From contig OZ024798.1 in the NCBI GenBank assembly GCA_964017045.1, forward strand, positions 7,833,793-7,897,792: a stretch of DNA of 64,000 nucleotides. The letters run 5' to 3'. The notes beneath the pieces were generated by a model, which was given only the letters and a program-made list of their open reading frames with translations, was not told where the DNA came from and did not search any database. Of this stretch, positions 6,701 through 59,986 are shown piece by piece; positions within the stretch are counted from its first letter, which is position 1; every line of letters begins with the position of its first letter. Position numbers and translations under genes: made by a program. The DNA comes from Omphiscola glabra (Eukaryota > Mollusca > Gastropoda > Lymnaeidae).

Positions 6701-9700
6701 CCACACACTTGTAGCGATTGTCCTTGTGCCTTGTCGATGGTCATTGCAAATGCGAGTCACATCGGAAACTGCTAACGTTTGAATTCAAATGGCATATCTG
6801 TTGCATTGGAAACAAATGTGCCATTATTAAGTTTTAATTTATGAAAAGCTTCATGATAAGTGGCACATACTTTACCGTTTACTGTTCTCAATTCTTGGAA
6901 GGACGTTGGTCCACGTACATTGATAAACAGTAATCGCAAGTAAAAGCATTCTGCATTGTTTGGGTAACAGTGCAGAAAATTTTTAAAATCTAATGCATCG
7001 GTTGAATATAAATTGGGGTGTTCTTCAAATACTGTTCGCTGATGTATTCTATGTGTAATATGTTGGCACTTCATAGTAAAATAGCGTCTTTGCAAACATA
7101 TCATTCCAGCACAATGAGAAAAATGCTGTTAACGTTGTTGGCGGAGGTTACAACGCTATTACACGTGCATCTTCTGTTGTGAAGTACATGCACTGTCCAT
7201 TTCCAAGGTGCACTGCCATATTAACTACTGTTGGATGGCGTTCATGGATTTGAAATGATAAAATGCGCCATACTGCTTCATTGCTATTAATGTAGCGTCT
7301 AAGTTGATATTGGTAGACTTCATCGATGGATCCAGTTGTTTTTTCCATTCCAAAAACTGCCAAATCGCTGCCTTTGTTAACATATTTGCAAATGTACTTG
7401 ATCGATTTCACCGGGACGCAATACTCGACATTGATGTGTGCATTGAACGTTTTCCCAACAGACCTTGAATCATGTTTTTGGTGCAGATTTCTAATAAGTT
7501 ATCAATGTCGACATCTGGTATTTTTGCAGAAATGACTTTATCAATTTGATCTGGTTTGACTTTTTCGATCAAGCAAATTAAAATGTGTGCATGTGACAAT
7601 CCCTTTTTGGCCATTCAACGGAATAAATCCAACAGCGTGTCTGTCCAAAACCTTGATGCTTGACAATTCAATCTATTAAAGATTTCAATTTTTGTTTAAA
7701 CACGCGCATTAATATCGTGACGATCCGATGATTGTCCAGTTAACAATTATTTTTGAACTTCATCCCTCGTAGGCTTGCATGTAAAGGTAATAAAATAAAT
7801 CTGGGCGGCCATATGCGCGAACATGTCATTTCATCTTGTGCGTACTGATGCATGCGCAGTAGACTCCCTGTTTTTGTGGCAGGTAGTATACCATTTTCCC
7901 CAGTTCATTTGGATTCACATTGCCTTCATTCACAACTGCATCATGTGAATGAATGTACTCTTCTGAACGCAACTTGCTTTGATTTAATAGAATGTAGAGG
8001 AGTCGGTTGATTTTCGCATACATATTAACAATGTATTGATAGAACAATTGACATTTCAAGATATGATTTTCGGCGCTCTCACGAATCATCAATCGATATG
8101 AATAGTAATTCATGGCACTGACTTTCTTATTCGATTCATCATCTGTTTGTGGATTTCTCAATTTGATGTTGAAATGATATCCATCTTGTCCTTGCCAAAA
8201 TAAAATTGGATATTGCCGTATGAGCGATGAGTTTCTGAGACTCGCCGAACATCACCATTTCTGCGATGCAGAATTATATCATGTGAGTAAAATTCTTTGC
8301 CAACTATAACCACCCCCACTTCAGCAATTGTTGGTGCATTGTATTGTCTTTCCTCTTAGCCGACAGGTGTTTAGACTGCTCCAGCTATAACTTTGTAGTC
8401 ATAAGTTAGCATTTGTTCAAGGACAATTATGAATATTTGAATTAATTCGTTGTGTTGAAAAAATAAAGTTTGCAATGCAGTGACAATTTCTCGTTTAGTG
8501 CCCGTATAGATTTGACAACGTTGATCGAATAGTTCATCAGTATTCCCCATGAAATAAATTTGAAGAAATTTGTGTTCTGCATTCGGCAGTGGAAGTAGTG
8601 ATCCTGCACTATGATAAATTTGCCCTTGCACTTTCAATGTTTGCATGTAATTCTCGCGTAGATATTTGTTGCACCAAACAAAGTCATTTGGAAACATGAA
8701 TTGTCCTTGCGTATGTCCCCCGTTTGCCAAGAAATGTTTCAATTGGCTTGTGTCACCTGACACCAACGTTGATAATGGTTCGGGTGGTGAATCTAATTCT
8801 GACAATTTCCCTTTCCCACCCGCACAGCAAATTCCAGCTGTTTCATTCTTAAATTTGAGGACACTGCAATACACGCATAATTTATCCAATTTTCCAATAA
8901 CCACACTTGGATGAAGACTGTAATCATAATTAGCATTGTAATGGAATGCACTAAGATTTAATTCAGCATTCAGTGTTCGTCTGGATCTAACAGTTCGTAC
9001 TCTATCGGTACCCAGTCATGCTTCCTGTTGCTTGACTGTTTCAGAGGAACAGGTTTGAGCATTGCGTACTCGAACGCTTTCCATTTTTACTTCCCATTGC
9101 TCCCCTGTGTCAAACTTACAGGTTTGAGCATTGCGTACTTGAGTGGTTTCCATTTTTACGTCCCGCTGCTCCACTGTGTCAAACATATGGGCTTGAGCAT
9201 TGCGTACTCCAGTGACTTCCAGTCTTGCCTCCCGTTGCTCAATTGTTTCTGAAGCTCATGATGAAATTTTCTTTCGTGCCAATAGCTTTCCGTTTGGTGG
9301 CATTATTGATTTGACAGCGAAAGAATTGCTTTGTGACGAATATTAAAAATGCATGCGATATCTATTATTAGATGTTGATTAACAATGGGAATTTCACAAT
9401 TAACACCACGTATTACGTCACACACAAAATGATATGTCGCTGTTTGTATTTGATTAAATTAATTTACGACATTCCCAACATTAATCATTTTCACAAGTTA
9501 GGATCTACCATCTTTTTACATGAAAACCTCCCGCAATAGGTAAGTTTATTGATGGCAGTAGAATTCCAGTTGTATAGGGGTTACATTACTTTATAAATCA
9601 TAAATTCCAGTGTTAAAATCTAGATATTACCATTGTTCAATACCTTTGTTGTCTAGGGGGTAATTTGATTACTTAACAAACCATCGATTCATGTCAAATG

Positions 9701-31732: not shown

Positions 31733-34058
31733 ATGACATGCACAAATTTCTCAGTGGCTCTCAGTGGCTGCCAGCAGCGAGAAGCTAAAAGAAAAGATGA
31801 TTGTAACATATTAAAATCAGTACCAAGATCCATGCTTAAAAATGCCAAGAAACCAAACGAAAACCAGAGTTCATCAAAACAAGTTCCTCAGCATACCATT
31901 GATACTGATTCCTTCGATAGCAGCAGCATGCATTCTATAGAACAGCAAATAGTGCAGAAAATGGAAGAGATTGACATGGAAATACAAGTGAGGGTTTGGA
32001 AGCTGATATGGGTGCAGATAATATGGATTCAAACCAAGATACTGTGAATGTGATGCTTAATGAGAAAAACTGGAATATTTTATCAGATGCTTCTTTCTGG
32101 ATGTACCAGTTCCAGATCATTTTCAGTTTGAAATTACCTTGTTTCAAAACAGGGACAGATCATTCAGCGTAGTGACATGGCAAGATGCAAAATATAAAGG
32201 AGGTTTGAGCCAGCTAAAAAAATAATTGTTGTAGCTACAGGTTGATGCCTAAAGGTAAGAAAATACAGCAGTCGTGGATGGTTTATTCACTCGTTAGTCA
32301 GATATTGTACTGTTTTTGCTCCAGATTGTTTGCTGTTAATGTTACAGAAACATACATCCAAATTCATTACTGAGCATTTGATAAGTAGTGGCAACTGAGC
32401 CCCAAAATCATGAGGCATCAGAAGAGCACCTATGTTGCCTTTAAAAATGGAAAACTTGGCAGCTATACAAAACAATAGATGCCCAAAGTATTGCTGTGAT
32501 GGACAGGGAGAAGTAAAGTGGAGGGATATCCTGCACAGGTTGGATATTACATTATTTCTTACAAGGCAAAATCTGGCATTTTGTGGCCACATCGAAGATG
32601 AATCTTCAATGAATAGAGGAAACTTTCTTGAAATGGTTGAGATGATATCTAAAAACAACCCAGTGCTAAAAAAAGCACCCAATTAGACGTAATAGGTGTA
32701 CATCTACAGCAAAAGCATCCGCATCTGATACCTTTCACCAGAAATACAAAATGAATTTATAAATGACCTTGCATATCAAGTGAAGGAGATTCTTATCATG
32801 AATATAAAGGCTGCGAGGTATTTTGGGATAATGTTCGACAGTACACCTGATATATCACACACTGACCAGATGTCTGAAGTGATCAGATATGTGAAAATCC
32901 ACAGTGGGAAAGTTGAAGTGAGAGAAATGTTTCTTTGATTTCTCCCTTTAAGGAGGAAAAATGCTGACGTCAGTTCCAACATTCTTACAAATATAAAACA
33001 CGATGGCCTAGACATAATGAAGTGCAGAGCTCAAGATTAAGATAATGCTGCCACATTGTCTGGAACCCATGGAAGTGTTCAGGCCATTCTGAAAAGAAAT
33101 AAGAAAGCGACTTTTCGTGGATGTGTGGAACATTCCCTTCACTTGGATGCTCAACACTCTTTTGCCAAAAATGCTTTATGTAATAAATTTTTCGGTACTT
33201 GAGAGAATATTTTCCTTTTTTGCTGTATCCACTTATCAATGGGTGGTCTACTTGAGGAAGTTAATCTTACACAGCAGTATCTGCAGACTAACGCTTTACT
33301 TTTGACAAACTGGTGACCTACCTAGAGGCCTTGAGATTGTTTCTGCACAAGAAGTGCTGTCACTTGGTGGAACATGCTATTGAAAAGGCACTTTTAAAAT
33401 CAGACCTATATGGAGTTTCGGTAGAGAGAAGATTAAGGTTTAAGAAGAGAATGGCAGGAGACCAAATAATAGATGCTAGACTCTCTCTCTGCGAGAAGAA
33501 AACAGTAGGGAGAGCTGGGGAGTACTGATTGCTTTCATACTGAACTCCAAATCAGATCATCAGCGATCAAGGAAGTAGCAGATATGTTTGGGGCTTTTCA
33601 ACACAAGAGTCTACTATCAGCTAGTGAAGAAGAGTTATTGGTGTTGATTCCAAAATTAACCTCTTTCTGTGATGTGTTATCAGAAGAAACACTTTTTAAA
33701 CAAATACCAAGGCTTAGACCTAATAGACACCTAAAGGCAGCTGATATTGAATGTCAAAAAGTCATGGACTGGTCAGTATTTGATGTTTTGAAATTCATAG
33801 CTGAATGGGACTTACTAGAATCTCTTAATACTCACTAAAACACGCTCACTGAGCCTTCAATTGTTTCTTACATTATGTGTGTCCGTGGCTCCATGTGAGC
33901 GGAGCTTTTCAAATTTAAGGCTTATCAAAAACTATTTACGATCCACCATGGGACAGTCAAGGCTTTCTGATCTGGCACTACTATCAATTGAACATGATAT
34001 GGTGAAGGATATTGCTTTTGATAAAGTTTTTTTTTTAACAGGTTTGCAGCTTTGAAGA
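31733..34058 (+). pseudogene. hAT transposase fossil, ZMYM1/ZNF862-like type
   Basis: Broken frames in order: REAKRKDDCNILKSVP (N-terminus); KWRDILHRLDITLFLTRQNL (32519 region), TTF-type zinc-finger region; MFDSTPDISHTDQMSEVIRY (32830), typical of the DUF4371/RNase H-like core; VTYLEALRLFLHKK (33310); HKSLLSASEEELLVLIPKL (33590); CVSVAPCERSFSNLRLIKNY and LRSTMGQSRLSDLALLSIEH (33880-34000), the hAT C-terminal dimerisation domain. Stops and at least one deletion near 33250-33310 make it dead. No terminal repeats found. Confidence 0.85.
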
Positions 34059-34574
34059 CCAGGAAAGGAAAATTTTAAATAAAGTAAATTTAATGTAAAA
34101 ACAACTTTAACTTAACGTTACAGTTCTTAAATGCATTTACCTCCTGACCTTCAATGAATTTGTTTTTGTTCTTGTCATTTGATACTAAGGACTTATTTTA
34201 ACAAAAAGAAATCCATAGTGGCAGTGGAAGTCAGGATTTGTTCACCTATAAGTATGTGTGCTAAATGCATTCAGGCATTCGGTTTGAAAATTGAAAACAA
34301 AATGGAGAGATTGTTAACACTACCGGCTATTATATATAGTATAGGCCTAATGTACAATTGTTGGCTGTAGAAATTTATAGTAATTAATAAGAAGCTAGTA
34401 CTGTACAATTAATGTTGGTTAATTATTAATGCCTGGAGTAAATTTAATAAAGAATTCACATAATTTTACAAACGAAAATGTGAAATTTGATCAGAAATAA
34501 TATAATATGTAACTGAACTGCACTCTAACCCATTATTCCACAAGTTCATTAGTAGTCTTTAAATCTAAAAAAGA

Positions 34575-34976
34575 GTGTGGTATATTATTAGCACTGCTAA
34601 ACATAATTTGGGCAATCCTCCAATTTGGGTCGTCTGCTTGGTTGAGTGTTGTAGTGGACGATGTTGGATGGAGGTTATTGGCCGTCGAGATGCACAAACA
34701 CTCGAGCGCATTATCAATAATCATGTGTTACCAGGGACAACTATCGTCACGGACGCTTGTCGAGGATATCAAAATGTCGCTCAGCTCAACAACGGGATTT
34801 ATGCTCATGCTGTCATTGTGCGCGCACGTGAATCTGTTGATTCAGTAGACCAGGACATTCACACAGAAACTATTGAAGGACTTGGGATGCAAGCGAAACA
34901 TAAACTCCACTGTACTAGTCACAGTCTGTTTGCCAGCTACTTGGGGGCTTTTAAATCGCGCAACAGTCACAAGTAG
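34575..34976 (+). pseudogene. Merlin (IS1595/ISXO2-type) transposase fragment
   Basis: One open frame of 133 codons matches the DDE core: PPIWVVCLVECCSGR, RRDAQTLERIINNHVLPGTT, IVTDACRGYQNV (second catalytic Asp) and IHTETIEGLGMQAK, then YLGAFKSRNSHK. The first catalytic region and termini are missing, and the expected Trp of TIE..W is Gly. A 5'-truncated Merlin remnant; the open frame suggests moderate age. Confidence 0.8.
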
Positions 34977-38620: not shown

Positions 38621-39194
38621 TTTGTTAATGAATCTTATGCAAAGTCGCGTCACACTCATGAAAATTACGCTTAGGGGGGCGGCCATTAATTATTTCCATA
38701 AAATAGGGGTGGGTGGGGTTGGAAATAATAGCCCCCATTACTGTTTGACTGATGTCTATTGATAATTCTTGTTTTGTTTTACTGATGTATATTCATGACC
38801 CTTGTAGTGTTTGACTGAATCCCACCGCCCCTAGGTAATGCTTACTTTGAGAACCACTGGTATAGACGACTGAAAATATCAGAATGCGGTGGTTGGCCAA
38901 CAGGGTTTCTTGTTTTTCATCAAAGCAATTTAGCATTGCCAGTACGATTATGTGGATTACCAACAGTACAGATGCCACTTTTCGTACAACTACCTTGGAT
39001 CTTAAATGATTCACTGTATACTGTATAGTATACAAAGATAGAAGAGAAACAGTAAGCAAATTAGTAAGCAGCATTTCAGCCAGGGGTAAATAGATTTAGA
39101 TAAATTATAAGCACAAATATTTTTTTATAAAAACATTAACATTCTTTGTCCTGCTCGCCAATTTTAAGACCCTCTTACTCTTTCTGGTTCTGGT

Positions 39195-48400: not shown

Positions 48401-51400
48401 TTTTAAAATTTTAATAAATCAACATAATATTTTAATACAAAACATAACATCATCATTAGTAACAAAAAACAAGGGGTGTGTGTCCAAAACAGGAACTTAA
48501 CAAAAACACGTATATGATGTCATGGCATGTCCTCTTTTATTTATAATATTTATTTATAATATGGACAGATTTTTAAAGCTCGAATTTAAAATATTTCAGT
48601 TTAAATGTCTTCAAAATGCATTCTGAAACACAAGTTATCAAATATTTTGATGCATATACTTCATACAGTGGTCGTAATTGAATATTTCCTAAGCTTAGTA
48701 TTTGCGTCTTCTGCCATTTAAAAGGGGGCGTGGTCACAAATCTAAAATGGCCTGTGCAACCTTTTTATAATGAGGTCTACATTGAGGTGATTTGCTAAAA
48801 TGTTTTATGAGCTATGGCAATGAAATTTCGAATTTTACCAAGCCTACAGCGTCAATTATACCGGTATGTACTTTGTAGTCTATATGAGGCAATGCGTGAC
48901 CTTGTTTCTAAATTACTGTTTGGGGTCTACTTATTTTGAACTTTCAACTTTGACACATGACTAACAATTAAAGCTTACCTTGACCAATAGTTTGATAGTT
49001 TTTGCACACAGCAAACTCTTATGAATGGACCTCTGAGCAAGATCTACACCAATAAGGCATAGCCATTATGCAAGTGACTGTGAATGGCAGCCCATGACAA
49101 TGTTTTGCACACAGCACATTATGATAATTTATAATATGGGCTCTACTGGGGTTACTCAAATTAAAACATATTTGTTTTATGACAATGGATATTGTTTTAA
49201 GAATTGATATACAACATAAAACTATGATATACTGGTCAAAAATAAGATTTAGGGAATAAAACCATTGAGATGCATGTGTAAGCTATACACTAAGGATATT
49301 AAATAATAATATTGGAACGCTAAGTAGTGCTTTTGAAATTGTTGAGCAGTTTTTGGAAAAATAATTCATCATCATGTCCCTTAGTCCCTGGGCCGTTGGA
49401 TGCCACAGATGACATGAAAACTATCCGTCTCCATTCCTCTCGGTCTTCTGTGCATAGAATCGCCTAGTTTTAATCCCGTCCACTCTTTGATGTTATCTTC
49501 CCATCTTTTCTCTGTCTTCCTCTTCTTCTTCTTCTTCCTCCTCTAGTTGTGCCCTGCATGATTTCTTTGGCGAGCCCTTGTTTTCTGGTCACGTGGCCAT
49601 ACCACTCAAGTTTGCGCTTTTTTACAGACACCAGGAGGTCATCATACTGCCCAATTGCTTGACGAATCTTTTCTTTCACTTGTTCTTTGGTGATATGGTC
49701 TCTATAGCAGATGCCAAGAATGCCTCTGAAAGATCTCATCTCCATCGCCTTTATTATTCTTTCAAGTTCTGCTGTTAATGTCTAGGACTCGCATGCATAT
49801 TAGAAAATTGAGAGGATTAATGAACGCATCAGCCGGATTTTGGTGCTGGGGGCTATATTTTTGTTGTTACATATTTTCTTTAGCCTCTTTAGTGCTGCTG
49901 TTGTCTGCGCAATCCTGGCCATCAATTCAGGCTTGGGGCCTTCTTCCAAGACTATTGCTCCGAGGTACTTGAAGCTGCCAAATGTCTCTAATCTTTCCTC
50001 CCCGACCTATTTCAGTGGCGATGCCAGTGGTGCTATTCTTCATTTTTGTCTTTTCTGCACTGATTTTCATGCCAAAGGACGATGAAGTCTTGTCGAGACG
50101 CTTTACTAGTTTGGCTAGCTCTTCTTCGCTTCCATCCATTCCGTCTATGTCATCCGCAAAGCGTAGGTTGGTGATTGTTCTGCCACCAATGCTGAATGTC
50201 CCTACATGCGCTTCCAGTGCATCTGACATAATTCTCTCCAAGAAGATGTTGAACAGGGTGGGGGAGAGCAAGAAGCCTTGTCGTACTCCAACTGTGGTCT
50301 TGAACCATTCTCCGATGTTACTGTTGAAGAAGACTGCACTGGTGGCCTTATCATAGAGCAGCGGTTCTCAACCTGTGGGTCACGACCCCGTTGGGGGTCG
50401 AATGACCCATTCCCAGGGGTCGCCTAAGACAATCGGGAAACCCATATACTCTATACAGTTATGAAGAGCAACGTGGTTGTGGGTCGGCACAACATGAGGA
50501 ACTGTATTAATGGGTCGCGGCATTAGGAAGGTTGAGAACCACTGTCATAGAGGGTACATATCATTCTGGTTAGGTTTGTGTTGATGTTGTAGTGCCTCAT
50601 GGTTAATGACAACAGCCTAAGAATTAAACTTTAGGAAACATTTGTCTATGTTAAAAGTATGGCACGACTGTCAGTCTCCAGTAAACTGTTTCTGGTCTTG
50701 ATCAAAAGTGTTAATGCATTTATGGCAAGGGTGGGCAAACTTTTTGTGGCGGGGGGGGGGGGGGGGCTGCATATATATATATATTATGTCCACTTTGTTT
50801 ACAGCAACCTATCAGTTATTATGAATTATTTATAGGTTATTAAATATTATAAATAATCAGTTATTGAAATCATACATTATATTTTACAATATGGACTAAA
50901 ACTTTAACTAATTTGTTAACAAGATTTTAATTTTTTTTATTAAAATAATAATTTATTTTTTTTGCATTATCTGTCAGTGGCTTTAGGTTAGACACAATCC
51001 CACTACATTGTCACTAGTTGTTCATTTCTAATGAGATGTATGTAACTGCTTGATCTTTTTGACAATGTTCTTGAAGTCTGGAGCAAGTTTACTTGTTGAA
51101 ATTCGCAAGACAGCATGCAAGTTGCAGTGCGACAATAAAGACCTATTCTTCGATTTGTTCATCTTCAAGCAAGAAAATGCTTGTTTGTAAATGTTATTCC
51201 AAACAATGATAAAAGTTGAGCTGCAAAGTTTTTCAAGTTGGGTAATGATTCTTCTGATAAAGAAACATAGAAATCCAGCAAACCATGTGACTTGAATTCT
51301 GCATGTCCTCTGGCTGTATCAGCTTCTGCACTAAAAGGGGAACTGAGAATGTTGAAATGTGGCTCTAAGTTCTTGGAATCTACTTCTGAATTTCTTCAGT

Positions 51401-57400: not shown

Positions 57401-59986
57401 AAAAAAAATCATTTGCTTGCCTTGAAAATTCAGGACAAGAGAAATGTCCACATGTTGAGCAGCCAGTCCATCTATGTCATCCGCAAAACGTATGTTGGTG
57501 ATTGTTCTGCCACCAATGCTGACTGTCCCTACATGCGCTTCCAGTGCATCTGACATAATTCTCTCCAATAAGATGTTGAACATGGTGGGGGAGAGCAAGC
57601 AGCCATATCGTACTCCAGCAGTAGTCTTTGATGTTATTGTTGAGGAAGACTGCACTGGTGGCCTTATCATAGAGGCTACATATCATTCTGGTTAAGTTTG
57701 TGTTGATGTTCTAGTGCCTCGATATGGCTCATAAAGCAGCATACCAAACCCTGTCGAATGCCTTCTTGAAATCCACAAAGACGTGGTATAGGTTTTATTG
57801 GTGTTGAGCATGTTTCTCACATAGTTTTAGGAGGTTTAGGATCTGCTCAGTAGTGCCATGTCATTGCGAGAAGCCCACCTGTTTATTTATGCTAGTAATC
57901 AATTTTTGACAGTAAGGTAATTATATCTGAAATCCACAATGTTTTTCAACGGCTGATTTGCGCAGAATAAGTTTCCAATAATAATTTTTTATTAGTAATT
58001 TCAAATGTAACAATTTAAAAAAAAATAATTTAATCAATGAAACAAATGATTTAAATACAAAGTAAATATGAATGCCCACCCACACAACCCATGGTACTAA
58101 TATGTACCGTTCCTCTATAGTTGGACGTGTAATAAGCAATATAATAAATTCTTTTTTTAATGCATGAAAATAAATACAATCTAAAGATTTCCCATGACAG
58201 AACTTTTCATTATATATGGAGTTTCATCAGCATACATCCTTTAATACAGTAAATAATAGTCCAATAGAGATGTGGGTGCTGGGTGGCCGAGTGGTCTGAA
58301 CTGAGCAAATCTCAAGTTAATGGTCAGGAGCTCAATCCCCGCCAAAGCCCAGTCAAGCAAAAAACACGACTGGGTGGATGGGACTCGTTAACCTTGGACG
58401 GCAACCCATCTAAGAGAAGGCAACTCTGAATTCAAACTGAGATGGGGAGATGGAGTTCACATGCGCCTAACTGGCAGCAGTGAGACCTCTCGAACATTGG
58501 AGCGCCGTGAGCATGCTATCAAAGCATGGAATGAGCGCTATATAAGTACTCCAATTAATCAAAGTTGTTTTTTAATTAGTGTAAGGATATATCAAAATAT
58601 GTGCTCTGGAAGGATTTTCTGTTATTTCCAATAATCTGTTGAACTAATGCACTTCCTCTGTTAATTAAGTCACTTCAGTAAGCTATTCAGATTAAATGCC
58701 CGGCATAGAAAAAAAGGATTGAAATTGAGAAAATGACATAACTTTTATTTTATTACTAACTCTTTTGGTTCATCAACTATGTTTATATCTACAATTTGTA
58801 TAGGGAACGAGACAAAGAACCCAGATTTGCTCCACCTGGCACATTTGAATATGAATTTGGAATGCGTTGGAAAGCCCTAGAAGATTTAGAGAAACAACGT
58901 ATAGATCAAATAAAGAAAGATACTGAAGAAGCTAGGATCAAGTTGGAGGATGAAATGCAAAATGCACTTTATGAATATCAAGCTGAACAAATCCGACAAG
59001 GTCAGTGTTGCAGCATAAAGTGCAATTTATATCTTCTTTTTTGTTATGGCTGAAAGAATGAAACTGAGTTCAGATGCTTAACATGAATGATGAGTTATTT
59101 CAAAGAGTTTTAGTTTAAAGTTTTAGGATCAATTAATTCTTATGTTTCATTCCTTATCTGTTTAAGGGATAGATATGTCATCAATGTCTTGAATAATTAA
59201 TTAGATTGATTTTTAAATATTTGTATTTAGCAGACATTGGAAATAAGAAATACAAATTTTATTTTTATTTTCTATAGATTTATTGCGTCAGCAAGAAGAA
59301 CTGCGCAGATTGGAAGAATTAAGGAACCAAGACAGAATGAGAAGGCAACAAGAATTGGAAATGAGGTACTGTAAAAATCCTTTTTTGTTCGTGAGCCCTT
59401 TATTCGCAGTTTATTCGCTTTTGTCATTTGACAATTTATTAAAAAAAAATGTTACAAATGTAACATAAAAGGGCCGTGAATAATAATGTATTTTACAGTA
59501 TATCATTTTTTGAATGTCTTAAATAATATATGTGATGTTGTTGGCATAACTTCTCCAGATGTGGATTTCTTAATTTTCTCAGATATTCTTAGATCAACAG
59601 AATATATCATTTTAAGACATAAACACATTTTATTACAAGCTCATCAATCATTGATGAAACAAGAATCATAGATTGAGAAACATTATCTGGCCACTGAGGG
59701 TTTATATTTAAATTGACAAGTGAAGTAAAACTAAAAGGTTTGAAAAGTCCATAATTTTGTTGAGTTTACAAATTATCCAAAAACAGTTTTTTTTTAAAGT
59801 GAAGGTTGAAGTTGTGAAAACATCATAATTGTTTTTGTTTTTAGGCGGCAGCAAGAAGAGAGGGACCGTGCTCAACAAGACGACCGTAGACGCACAGACA
59901 TGATGCTTAGTATGAGACAGCAAGAGCTGGCAAGGGGAAGAGGGCCTATTGATGCCCCTGGTTTGAGGAGTAGAGATGATATGTTG
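41938..59986 (+). CDS. DBHS-family RNA-binding protein (NONO/SFPQ/PSPC1; fly NonA), first six coding exons
   Basis: Six phase-consistent exons give 430 residues: a Ser/Asn/Lys-rich N-terminus (1-110); RRM1 (about 112-182) with RNP2 LFVGNL and RNP1 [11 protein letters not shown]2 (about 187-253) from [15 protein letters not shown] (about 257-305) with [16 protein letters not shown]; and a long charged coiled coil (about 300-410). This is the DBHS arrangement; such proteins dimerise through RRM2/NOPS and coiled coil and act in splicing, transcription and paraspeckle-like nuclear bodies. The start is ATG 41938, before which an in-frame TTG also lies; the ATG follows AACAAA. The last exon ends in phase 0 at GATATGTTG|gtatgt, so a C-terminal exon is still needed; vertebrate members suggest 40-100 or more residues missing. 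It was not found before 64000. Introns 1 (12.4 kb) and 3 (3.4 kb) are full of transposons. Confidence 0.93.
43047..43126. repeat. 80-bp near-perfect hairpin with paired YY1-like motifs
   Basis: The left arm CCATAGCCGCCATCTTGG... runs to GACCCGTGAAC, and the right arm GTTCACGGGTC... runs to CAAGATGGCGGCCATGG. About 35-bp arms differ at one or two bases around a loop of some 8 bases. AAGATGGCGGC, present on both strands, is the YY1/pleiohomeotic consensus. Function is inference. Confidence 0.85.
43232..43300. repeat. Three tandem 23-bp units
   Basis: TCCCTAACAGGGTTTTGACC followed by CTC, three times in a row (the last slightly changed), each with its own CCCTAACAGGG dyad. Part of the right arm of the foldback. 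Confidence 0.9.
43711..46282. other. Intron 1 of the DBHS gene, AT-rich unassigned part
   Basis: Contains the G17 tract at 45284-45300 and a CpG-richer patch (45470-45860) with two CGTACACCGC-GCGGT blocks, but no coding frame or recognised element. GCATACCCGTACCGGGGTAT (44502) is a short palindrome-like motif. Confidence 0.35.
45284..45300. repeat. Poly-G tract, 17 bases
   Basis: Uninterrupted G run in DBHS intron 1, sense strand. Confidence 0.95.
46283..46375 (-). mobile_element. SINE 3' fragment
   Basis: Reverse complement reads GGGCTATATAAGTACTCAAA after a GCATGGAAATG block, matching the SINE tail of 58272-58561. The head is missing. Confidence 0.65.
46558..47017. mobile_element. Second piggyBac-like MITE family, 452 bp between TTAA sites
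   Basis: TTAA at 46558-46561 and 47014-47017; ends CCCATTCAATCC and GGATTGAATGGG are perfect 12-bp inverted repeats. The left subterminal region repeats CAATCCCA(T/C)A(G/C)CGGCC and ATCCGGCCA twice. No coding frame. A lone related end, TTAACCCATTCAAT, lies near 42696. Confidence 0.85.
47126..48124. mobile_element. Family B element, copy 2 (999 bp)
   Basis: Ends AGGTACTTCGGTAAAG and AACTGAAGTACCT are inverted. The interior aligns with 35933-37431. It is flanked by CCTAACCTGAACCCTAAG on the left and a degraded form on the right, so it may sit inside a telomere-like arm of a larger repeat. Confidence 0.65.
48600..49190 (-). mobile_element. Family B, inverted and rearranged partial copy
   Basis: Reverse complements of family B blocks (TTTAAAAGGGGGCGTGGTCAC, shortened; TATTATAAATTATCATAATG; ACTTGCATAATGGCTAT) occur here in an order different from a simple inversion of copy 2. 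Confidence 0.55.
49430..50620 (-). pseudogene. RTE-like LINE reverse transcriptase fragment, copy 1 (interrupted by SPIN)
   Basis: The minus frame 50271-49927 has [20 protein letters not shown] and [12 protein letters not shown] (the catalytic F-A-D-D box), then [12 protein letters not shown]. After a shift, 49745-49470 has [20 protein letters not shown] and [16 protein letters not shown], the basic RTE-type C-terminus. The 186-bp SPIN insertion (50359-50544) splits the upstream RT region. The element is 5' truncated. Confidence 0.85.
50359..50544. mobile_element. SPIN (Space Invaders) hAT non-autonomous element
   Basis: 186 bp starting CAGCGGTTCTCAACCTGTGG and ending GGTTGAGAACCACTG, flanked by identical 8-bp TCATAGAG (50351-50358 and 50545-50552). 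Termini and inner blocks (GGGGTCGCCTAAGAC, ACATGAGGAACTGTATTAA, GGGTCGCGGCATTAGGAAGG) match, from memory, the SPIN consensus first described in tetrapods. The second LINE copy has the same site without insertion (TCATAGAG once, 57667-57674). Confidence 0.92.
50751..50766. repeat. Poly-G tract, 16 bases
   Basis: G run directly inside the hAT-like terminus, followed by a (TA)n run. Confidence 0.95.
52031..52192 (-). mobile_element. SINE copy inserted in the hAT fossil
   Basis: Reverse complement carries TGGGTGGCCAAGCGGTCTAA (tRNA-like head), TGGGTGGATGGGACCAGTTA and AACTCATCTAAGAGAAGGCA, as in the SINE at 58272-58561. The 3' tail is missing. Confidence 0.75.
53071..53389. mobile_element. Family E foldback element, complete copy
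   Basis: The left arm CTATAGGTACACGGGTAC and GAGAGGTTGGGATTAAAAAA (to 53130) is matched in reverse by the right arm ending GGTACCCGTGTACCTATAG. A second inner pair, GACATCCGAATAGCATT and ATGCTATTCGGATGTC, nests within. Partial copies at 38360-38620 and 55424-55620. No coding frame. Confidence 0.8.
53390..54645. other. Distal part of DBHS intron 1
   Basis: AT-rich. Contains a short (TA)n run near 53840 and nothing else recognised before the acceptor at 54789. Confidence 0.35.
54646..54665. repeat. Poly-G tract, 20 bases, near the DBHS exon 2 acceptor
   Basis: Run of 20 G on the sense strand, 124 bases before exon 2. Confidence 0.95.
54790..55091 (+). CDS. DBHS exon 2: end of RRM1 and RRM2
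   Basis: Acceptor cttttgacag, donor GGAGT|gtaagt, phase 0 in, 2 out. [15 protein letters not shown] ends RRM1; [19 protein letters not shown] to [13 protein letters not shown] form RRM2. Very high similarity to the family, no damage. Confidence 0.94.
55284..55379 (+). CDS. DBHS exon 3: start of NOPS
   Basis: Acceptor caacttttag, donor CAAAAA|gtatgt, phase 2 to 2. It encodes [20 protein letters not shown] then [11 protein letters not shown], the NOPS entry that wraps the partner's RRM2. Confidence 0.92.
55424..55620. mobile_element. Family E, one-armed copy
   Basis: GCACCTATTGGTACACAGGTAC, shortened here by one substitution from the full arm, then GGTTGGGATTAAAAAACAAT and ACATCCGAATAG. It begins 45 bases into DBHS intron 3. 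Confidence 0.6.
55977..57462 (+). mobile_element. piggyBac transposon, 5' end and transposase, 3' part lost
   Basis: TTAA at 55977-55980 followed by CCCTTCCAGTTCCCGGCGTG, with spaced subterminal motifs of the form GTCTTTTTGC. The transposase pieces are listed separately. Homology stops at about 57462, where a LINE fragment begins, so the right terminus is missing. Confidence 0.82.
56225..57462 (+). pseudogene. piggyBac transposase pseudogene
   Basis: An acidic N-terminal frame (56225-56509), then broken pieces including [10 protein letters not shown], and a good stretch 56906-57196: [18 protein letters not shown] (first catalytic Asp) and [20 protein letters not shown]. After a stop: [20 protein letters not shown] (second catalytic Asp), [12 protein letters not shown], and DKRNVHMLS, where it ends. 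Several stops; it has lost its end, so it cannot be active. Confidence 0.85.
57463..57910 (-). pseudogene. RTE-like LINE fragment, copy 2 (SPIN-free)
   Basis: Minus-strand [34 protein letters not shown] and, upstream, the palm-domain segment around KAFDRVW (near 57775). The DNA is closely similar to 50140-50610 and contains the unoccupied SPIN site. Fused at about 57462 to the piggyBac remnant. Confidence 0.8.
58272..58561 (+). mobile_element. tRNA-derived SINE, most complete copy
   Basis: The head GGGTGGCCGAGTGGTCTGAA looks like the A box of a type II (Leu/Ser-like) tRNA, and GGTCAGGAGCTCAATCCCCG like a B box. A body with TGGGTGGATGGGACTCG follows, and a tail GCGCTATATAAGTACTCCAA. It lies in DBHS intron 3, sense. 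Related fragments at 16330, 46283 and 52031. Confidence 0.82.
58804..59000 (+). CDS. DBHS exon 4: rest of NOPS and start of coiled coil
   Basis: Acceptor aatttgtatag, donor GACAAG|gtcagt, phase 2 in, 1 out. [20 protein letters not shown] is a family signature; a Lys/Glu helix follows ([16 protein letters not shown]). Confidence 0.94.
59278..59365 (+). CDS. DBHS exon 5: coiled coil
   Basis: Acceptor ttttctatag, donor ATGAG|gtactg, phase 1 in, 2 out. [19 protein letters not shown] is a heptad-like charged helix. Confidence 0.92.
59845..59986 (+). CDS. DBHS exon 6: end of coiled coil
   Basis: Acceptor gtttttag, donor ATGTTG|gtatgt, phase 2 in, 0 out. [20 protein letters not shown] then [14 protein letters not shown]; the loss of heptads after GRGPIDAPG marks the start of the flexible tail. 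Confidence 0.92.

Follow-up and report, generated by a model that had tools for sequence, protein, structure and literature searches.

What is a short element with the look of a vertebrate transposon doing inside a LINE of a freshwater pulmonate snail, and how did it come to be there? The question is posed by a 64,000-nucleotide stretch of the Omphiscola glabra genome (contig OZ024798.1, positions 7,833,793 to 7,897,792; hereafter the window), in which the original prediction had recognised a SPIN-like hAT element and had raised the prospect of transfer between phyla. SPIN and SPIN_NA (SPACE INVADERS) are hAT elements reportedly described by Pace in 2008 and Gilbert in 2010 from tetrapods and from Rhodnius prolixus. 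A further paper (PMC11614815) regards the Rhodnius SPIN as an acquisition from vertebrates. The analysis set out below leads us to regard the window copy as very probably a MITE whose parent in O. glabra is a hAT transposon of SPIN type, within the Buster group, and one that would have been mobilized in trans and acquired horizontally. On that reading the snail joins the hosts of this classic horizontally transferred transposon as an added lymnaeid, with a chromosome-level genome.

A mini-element within a broken LINE

The window copy is 186 bp long, with sharp bounds (Table 1); it is non-coding and carries no transposase, the longest open frame across it (54 amino acids) being one that we judge meaningless. 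Its anatomy is that of a hAT element, with short terminal inverted repeats that start CA(G) and an 8-bp target site duplication, the latter found also in the copies sampled elsewhere in the genome. SPIN termini, an internal block and identical 8-bp flanks had all been claimed for this locus, and all three hold: the 16-nt ends are complementary at 15 of 16 positions, GGGGTCGCCTAAGAC is present in exact form and TCATAGAG lies on both sides. Within the window the family is represented by a single copy, since blastn with the family consensus recovers the element at 50359-50544 and otherwise short, weak matches (best E 0.62). When up to three mismatches are allowed, GGTTCTCAACCTGTGGGTC, a 19-mer taken from the left end, has a single place in the window and none in 100 shuffles, and GGGGTCGCCTAAGAC has one other place, at three mismatches.

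The element breaks a LINE open frame with a reverse-transcriptase domain, the frame extending 6 bases into the element itself. Aligned separately, the LINE parts on either side match a paralogue near 57.5 kb at 88% and 94%; with the element and one octamer taken out, the rejoined LINE agrees with that paralogue at 242 of 272 positions (89%), with no break at the site. The earlier claim of an uninterrupted site at 57667-57674 therefore stands, but the extent given for the paralogue does not, the LINE likeness covering about 57460-57720 and not reaching 57910. This empty site is that of a LINE paralogue in the same window and not the orthologous locus of another animal; a paralogous LINE copy showing the unfilled target is sufficient to define the insertion.

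Table 1. The mini-element, its parts and its target, in coordinates of the window.
Feature	Position	Strand	Details
SPIN-type non-autonomous hAT mini-element (MITE)	50359..50544	+	Ends, duplications, family
Left target site duplication TCATAGAG	50351..50358	.	Form nnnTAnnn; 8/8 same as right
Left terminal inverted repeat	50359..50374	+	16 nt, 15/16 (94%) complementary to 50529-50544
Span of five GGGTCG/CGACCC hexamers	50383..50517	.	At 50383, 50395, 50417, 50481, 50512
Internal conserved block GGGGTCGCCTAAGAC	50416..50430	+	Exact in window copy; 6,408 exact genome copies
Right terminal inverted repeat	50529..50544	-	16 nt, pairs with 50359-50374
Right target site duplication TCATAGAG	50545..50552	.	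Identical octamer to left
LINE open frame, reverse-transcriptase domain, broken by SPIN-type element	49927..50364	-	Pfam RVT_1, E 1.8e-14
Unfilled target site in LINE paralogue	57667..57674	.	Paralogue alignable over 57460-57720

Copy number, divergence and target preference

We searched 744,774,263 bases in 37 contigs for further members of the family. With the window copy as query, 40 of 3,787 first-look candidates were scored and all 40 matched; these best 40 copies, a set that is biased because it was chosen for likeness to the window copy, are spread over 16 chromosome-sized contigs (C1-C5, C7-C13, C15-C18) and yielded a consensus of 197 bp. The window copy is identical to this consensus at 175 of 184 positions with 15 gap columns: 12 bp are missing in one stretch and a single base elsewhere, and 2 bp are inserted. 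A second set, of 21 full-length copies, was drawn from contig C1, where the first 30 places with the core block were taken and 10 of these loci dropped, having no copy that spanned both ends; 19 of the 21 hold GGGGTCGCCTAAGAC exactly, and the other two are neighbours of block copies, in loci L053 and L063.

The number of copies in the host had been left to be counted, and the family proves to be large. Exact GGGGTCGCCTAAGAC occurs 6,408 times in 745 Mb (3,240 + 3,168; backwards control, 0), which sets the count at no fewer than that number of core blocks (at least 6,408), and the 46-bp right end occurs in exact form 422 times (203 + 219; control, 0). By rough extrapolation, the counts of core block and right end together correspond to ~0.088 changes per site and to ~24,000 copies, a figure that assumes an equal mutation rate at every site. 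The Kimura two-parameter (K2P) distance to the consensus, measured on the 21 full-length copies, is of the same order (mean 0.105, range 0.070-0.166). One SPIN-type copy, at locus L046, has ~305 bp of other sequence between its halves, perhaps a nested insertion.

Both sets contain copies without clean duplications. Flanks are identical at 8/8 in 18 of the best 40 copies, the window copy included, and in 9 of the 21 full-length copies; they match at 6/8 or better in 37 of 40 and 20 of 21, leaving three copies and one copy below that level, where misplaced ends, lost flanks or recombination may be responsible. Both flanks carry the dinucleotide TA at positions 4-5 in 35 of the best 40 copies and in 18 of the 21 full-length ones; the frequency of TA in the window is 0.085. 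Buster-group hAT transposons, SPIN among them, have nnnTAnnn as their published target signature, and this is the form that these sampled copies display.

Internal sequence in common with vertebrate records

Our test of the likeness to vertebrate SPIN was indirect: spurious database proteins, predicted across SPIN-like copies, were searched with a conceptual frame of the snail element. Residues 21-60 of the frame through one genomic copy (L006), which is nearer to the consensus than the window copy is, matched all 12 candidate proteins (E up to 1). A Xenopus tropicalis protein on a 154-Mb contig matches this frame with E 1.0e-7, and a Gekko kuhli protein on a 33-Mb contig, in a record flagged UNVERIFIED_CONTAM by NCBI, with E 1.0e-9. 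Over the region that both proteins cover, 27 hand-trimmed residues counted from the element's end, the frame of the snail consensus agrees with X. tropicalis at 24 and with G. kuhli (the flagged record) at 26, in what is a comparison of short conceptual translations with records that carry no SPIN label. The matching frame begins in the right end and continues inward, so that internal sequence is common to the snail family and the vertebrate records; the Xenopus protein goes on into MYFPMVLGNPCER, which resembles MCFPMVLGDPWER, another frame, in the left half of the consensus. The conceptual frame of the window copy itself gave no protein match, and that copy has lost part of the stretch concerned.

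As a second and weaker line, we aligned the snail consensus to an informally reconstructed vertebrate SPIN mini-element consensus, written out with the window copy in view, finding 192 of 197 aligned bases identical with 26 gap columns; 200 shuffles put through the same gapped aligner gave a mean of 0.75 and a maximum of 0.85. The reconstructed consensus includes the 12-bp stretch that is absent from the window copy and present in the genome consensus. Set beside the SPIN of tetrapods and Rhodnius, as represented by that reconstructed consensus, the snail family is alike in its ends, its internal blocks, its 8-bp nnnTAnnn duplications and its nature as a non-coding mini-element; it differs by one missing stretch (the 26 gap columns) and by five aligned bases.

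The SPIN identity proposed for the locus is supported, indirectly, by internal sequence common to vertebrate records and by the agreement with the reconstructed consensus. A family with only the terminal 20 bp in common with SPIN and otherwise an unrelated mollusc MITE, the outcome named beforehand as fatal to the SPIN call, is not what we found, since the internal frame matches vertebrate records. Identity between frog and snail in non-coding DNA is not what descent would be expected to leave, and the likeness to vertebrate records argues for cross-phylum transfer into the snail line, as the original prediction had suggested.

Probable mobilization in trans

A non-coding element of this kind would depend on a hAT transposase made elsewhere, presumably that of SPIN. 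Such a transposase would bind the ends and the GGGTCG repeats, excise mini-elements and reinsert them at nnnTAnnn, where an 8-bp staggered cut, typical of hAT, would leave the 8-bp duplication; by this route the window copy would have entered an older LINE. The hexamer GGGTCG, counted on both strands, occurs six times in the consensus and five times in the window copy, against seven times in the remaining 63.8 kb of sequence in the window and a mean of 0.099 (largest, 2) in 2,000 shuffles of the consensus. Other hAT elements have comparable subterminal repeats that serve as binding sites, and by analogy the hexamers are possibly subterminal transposase-binding repeats here.

The genome holds at least 119 places with DUF4371, a hAT transposase domain (150 scored of 306 candidates). 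SPIN ends bounded the transposase at none of 30 Dimer_Tnp_hAT loci inspected over ~1.5 kb on each side, these loci being a small part of 1,849 candidates, of which 150 places were scored; a near-complete SPIN-type MITE lay near the transposase at 2 of the 30. SPIN ends were likewise absent around the transposase at five of five longer hAT loci.

Origin and timing of the proposed transfer

Related elements have been reported from other snails. A SPIN-like hAT of Biomphalaria glabrata has ~1,000 copies and significant identity with SPIN, and intact transposases were not detected in that assembly (PMC5440852). This element and that of O. glabra are alike in their freshwater pulmonate host and their likeness to SPIN; they differ in that B. 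glabrata belongs to another snail family and that O. glabra has at least 6,408 exact cores, the elements being compared by description. Another paper cites, as earlier work, a hAT transfer that involved vertebrates and the snail Lymnaea stagnalis (PMC4344730). Lymnaea stagnalis and O. glabra are different species, both of the Lymnaeidae. The transferred hAT of L. stagnalis is said to have been identified as SPIN by Gilbert in 2010. Because the Biomphalaria element and the Lymnaea transfer are already in print, the cross-phylum transfer supported here is a smaller surprise than first supposed. What is new is O. glabra as a host and its copy number; the kind of element was already known. The main text of the O. 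glabra genome paper (PMC12553978) holds no transpos-, SPIN or hAT, and that of a later B. glabrata genome paper (PMC10903818) no SPIN or hAT as whole words. Our SPIN literature search, which covered few subscription papers and did not query Omphiscola and SPIN jointly, returned no title with Omphiscola, and we make no claim that the occurrence is unpublished.

These reports bear on when SPIN would have entered. A single invasion of the lymnaeid ancestor, or of an ancestor of all hygrophilans, followed by inheritance, would make the O. glabra copies a common relic and not the product of transfer into Omphiscola, and to this account we give somewhat less than an even chance. It is consistent with the published SPIN-like hAT of Biomphalaria and hAT transfer in L. 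stagnalis, and with the divergence of the 21 full-length copies (mean K2P 0.105 to the consensus), which are not recent. Divergence of ~10%, however, would seem young for an entry that predates the separation of Planorbidae from Lymnaeidae, and copy numbers are unequal, with at least 6,408 cores against the ~1,000 copies reported for B. glabrata. Such an ancestral entry concerns timing and is compatible with SPIN identity. That O. glabra instead underwent a cross-phylum SPIN invasion of its own, apart from those of L. stagnalis and Biomphalaria, and that its ~24,000 copies would rank among the largest invertebrate SPIN bursts, we consider unlikely. With thousands of target-flanked insertions available, the number and timing of SPIN entries become testable through orthologous sites among lymnaeids. 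Parasites offer the proposed route of transfer: L. stagnalis and Biomphalaria carry flatworms that also live in vertebrates (PMC4344730, PMC5440852).

The remaining accounts dispense with transfer of a SPIN element. Ends similar to these are common to many hAT families, and the minus strand of the window has another terminus-like sequence, CAGTGGTTCTCAAAG, at 38859, so an unrelated mollusc hAT MITE with only its terminal inverted repeats in common with SPIN deserves mention; it is very improbable given an internal frame that matches the Xenopus and Gekko records and a 192/197 agreement with the reconstructed consensus that runs, one gapped stretch excepted, along the whole length. Inheritance from an ancestor that snails and vertebrates had in common has no finding in its favour and is scarcely credible, for it would require more than 500 million years of conservation in non-coding DNA, at the level of 24/27 to 26/27 conceptual residues, when copies within this one genome lie ~10% off their own consensus. 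The published distribution of SPIN across animals is patchy. Assembly artefact or contamination, considered since the Gekko record is flagged, has nothing in this genome in its favour and can be taken as negligible, the copy sitting in a host LINE between duplicated target sites and the best 40 copies lying on 16 chromosome-sized contigs.

For the preferred reading, a horizontally acquired SPIN-type MITE, four of four pattern scans with element DNA found no match in viral and prokaryote contig collections, as expected for an animal element, and blastn against phages and plasmids found none. A fast-evolving host exon was also considered, and no homologue was found.

Other transposon remnants in the window

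The window contains several further traces of DNA transposons. A second hAT-like terminus, CAAGGGTGGGCAAACTTTTTG, stands at 50726, followed by a decayed frame, coding on the minus strand and reaching to about 52200, which we take to have transposase likeness; the window yielded no partner end for it, and a Pfam scan of the piece from 50726 to ~52200 gave no match. The terminus at 38859 is SPIN/Charlie-like and seems to be part of some other hAT, a nearby partner end or target duplication having been sought and not found. Helitron-looking frames occupy 6772-9015 on the minus strand, where one piece (7826-8248) resembles Helitron_like_N with E 0.00063, below the cut-off, and three other pieces have no Pfam match. 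Two more traces are on the plus strand. A DUF4371 (hAT transposase) stretch at 32537-33067 is decayed, contains six stops and is one of the DUF4371 places listed genome-wide; an ISXO2-like DDE transposase domain at 34569-34973 (PF12762, E 8.9e-11) is perhaps the remnant of a Merlin-type DNA transposon.
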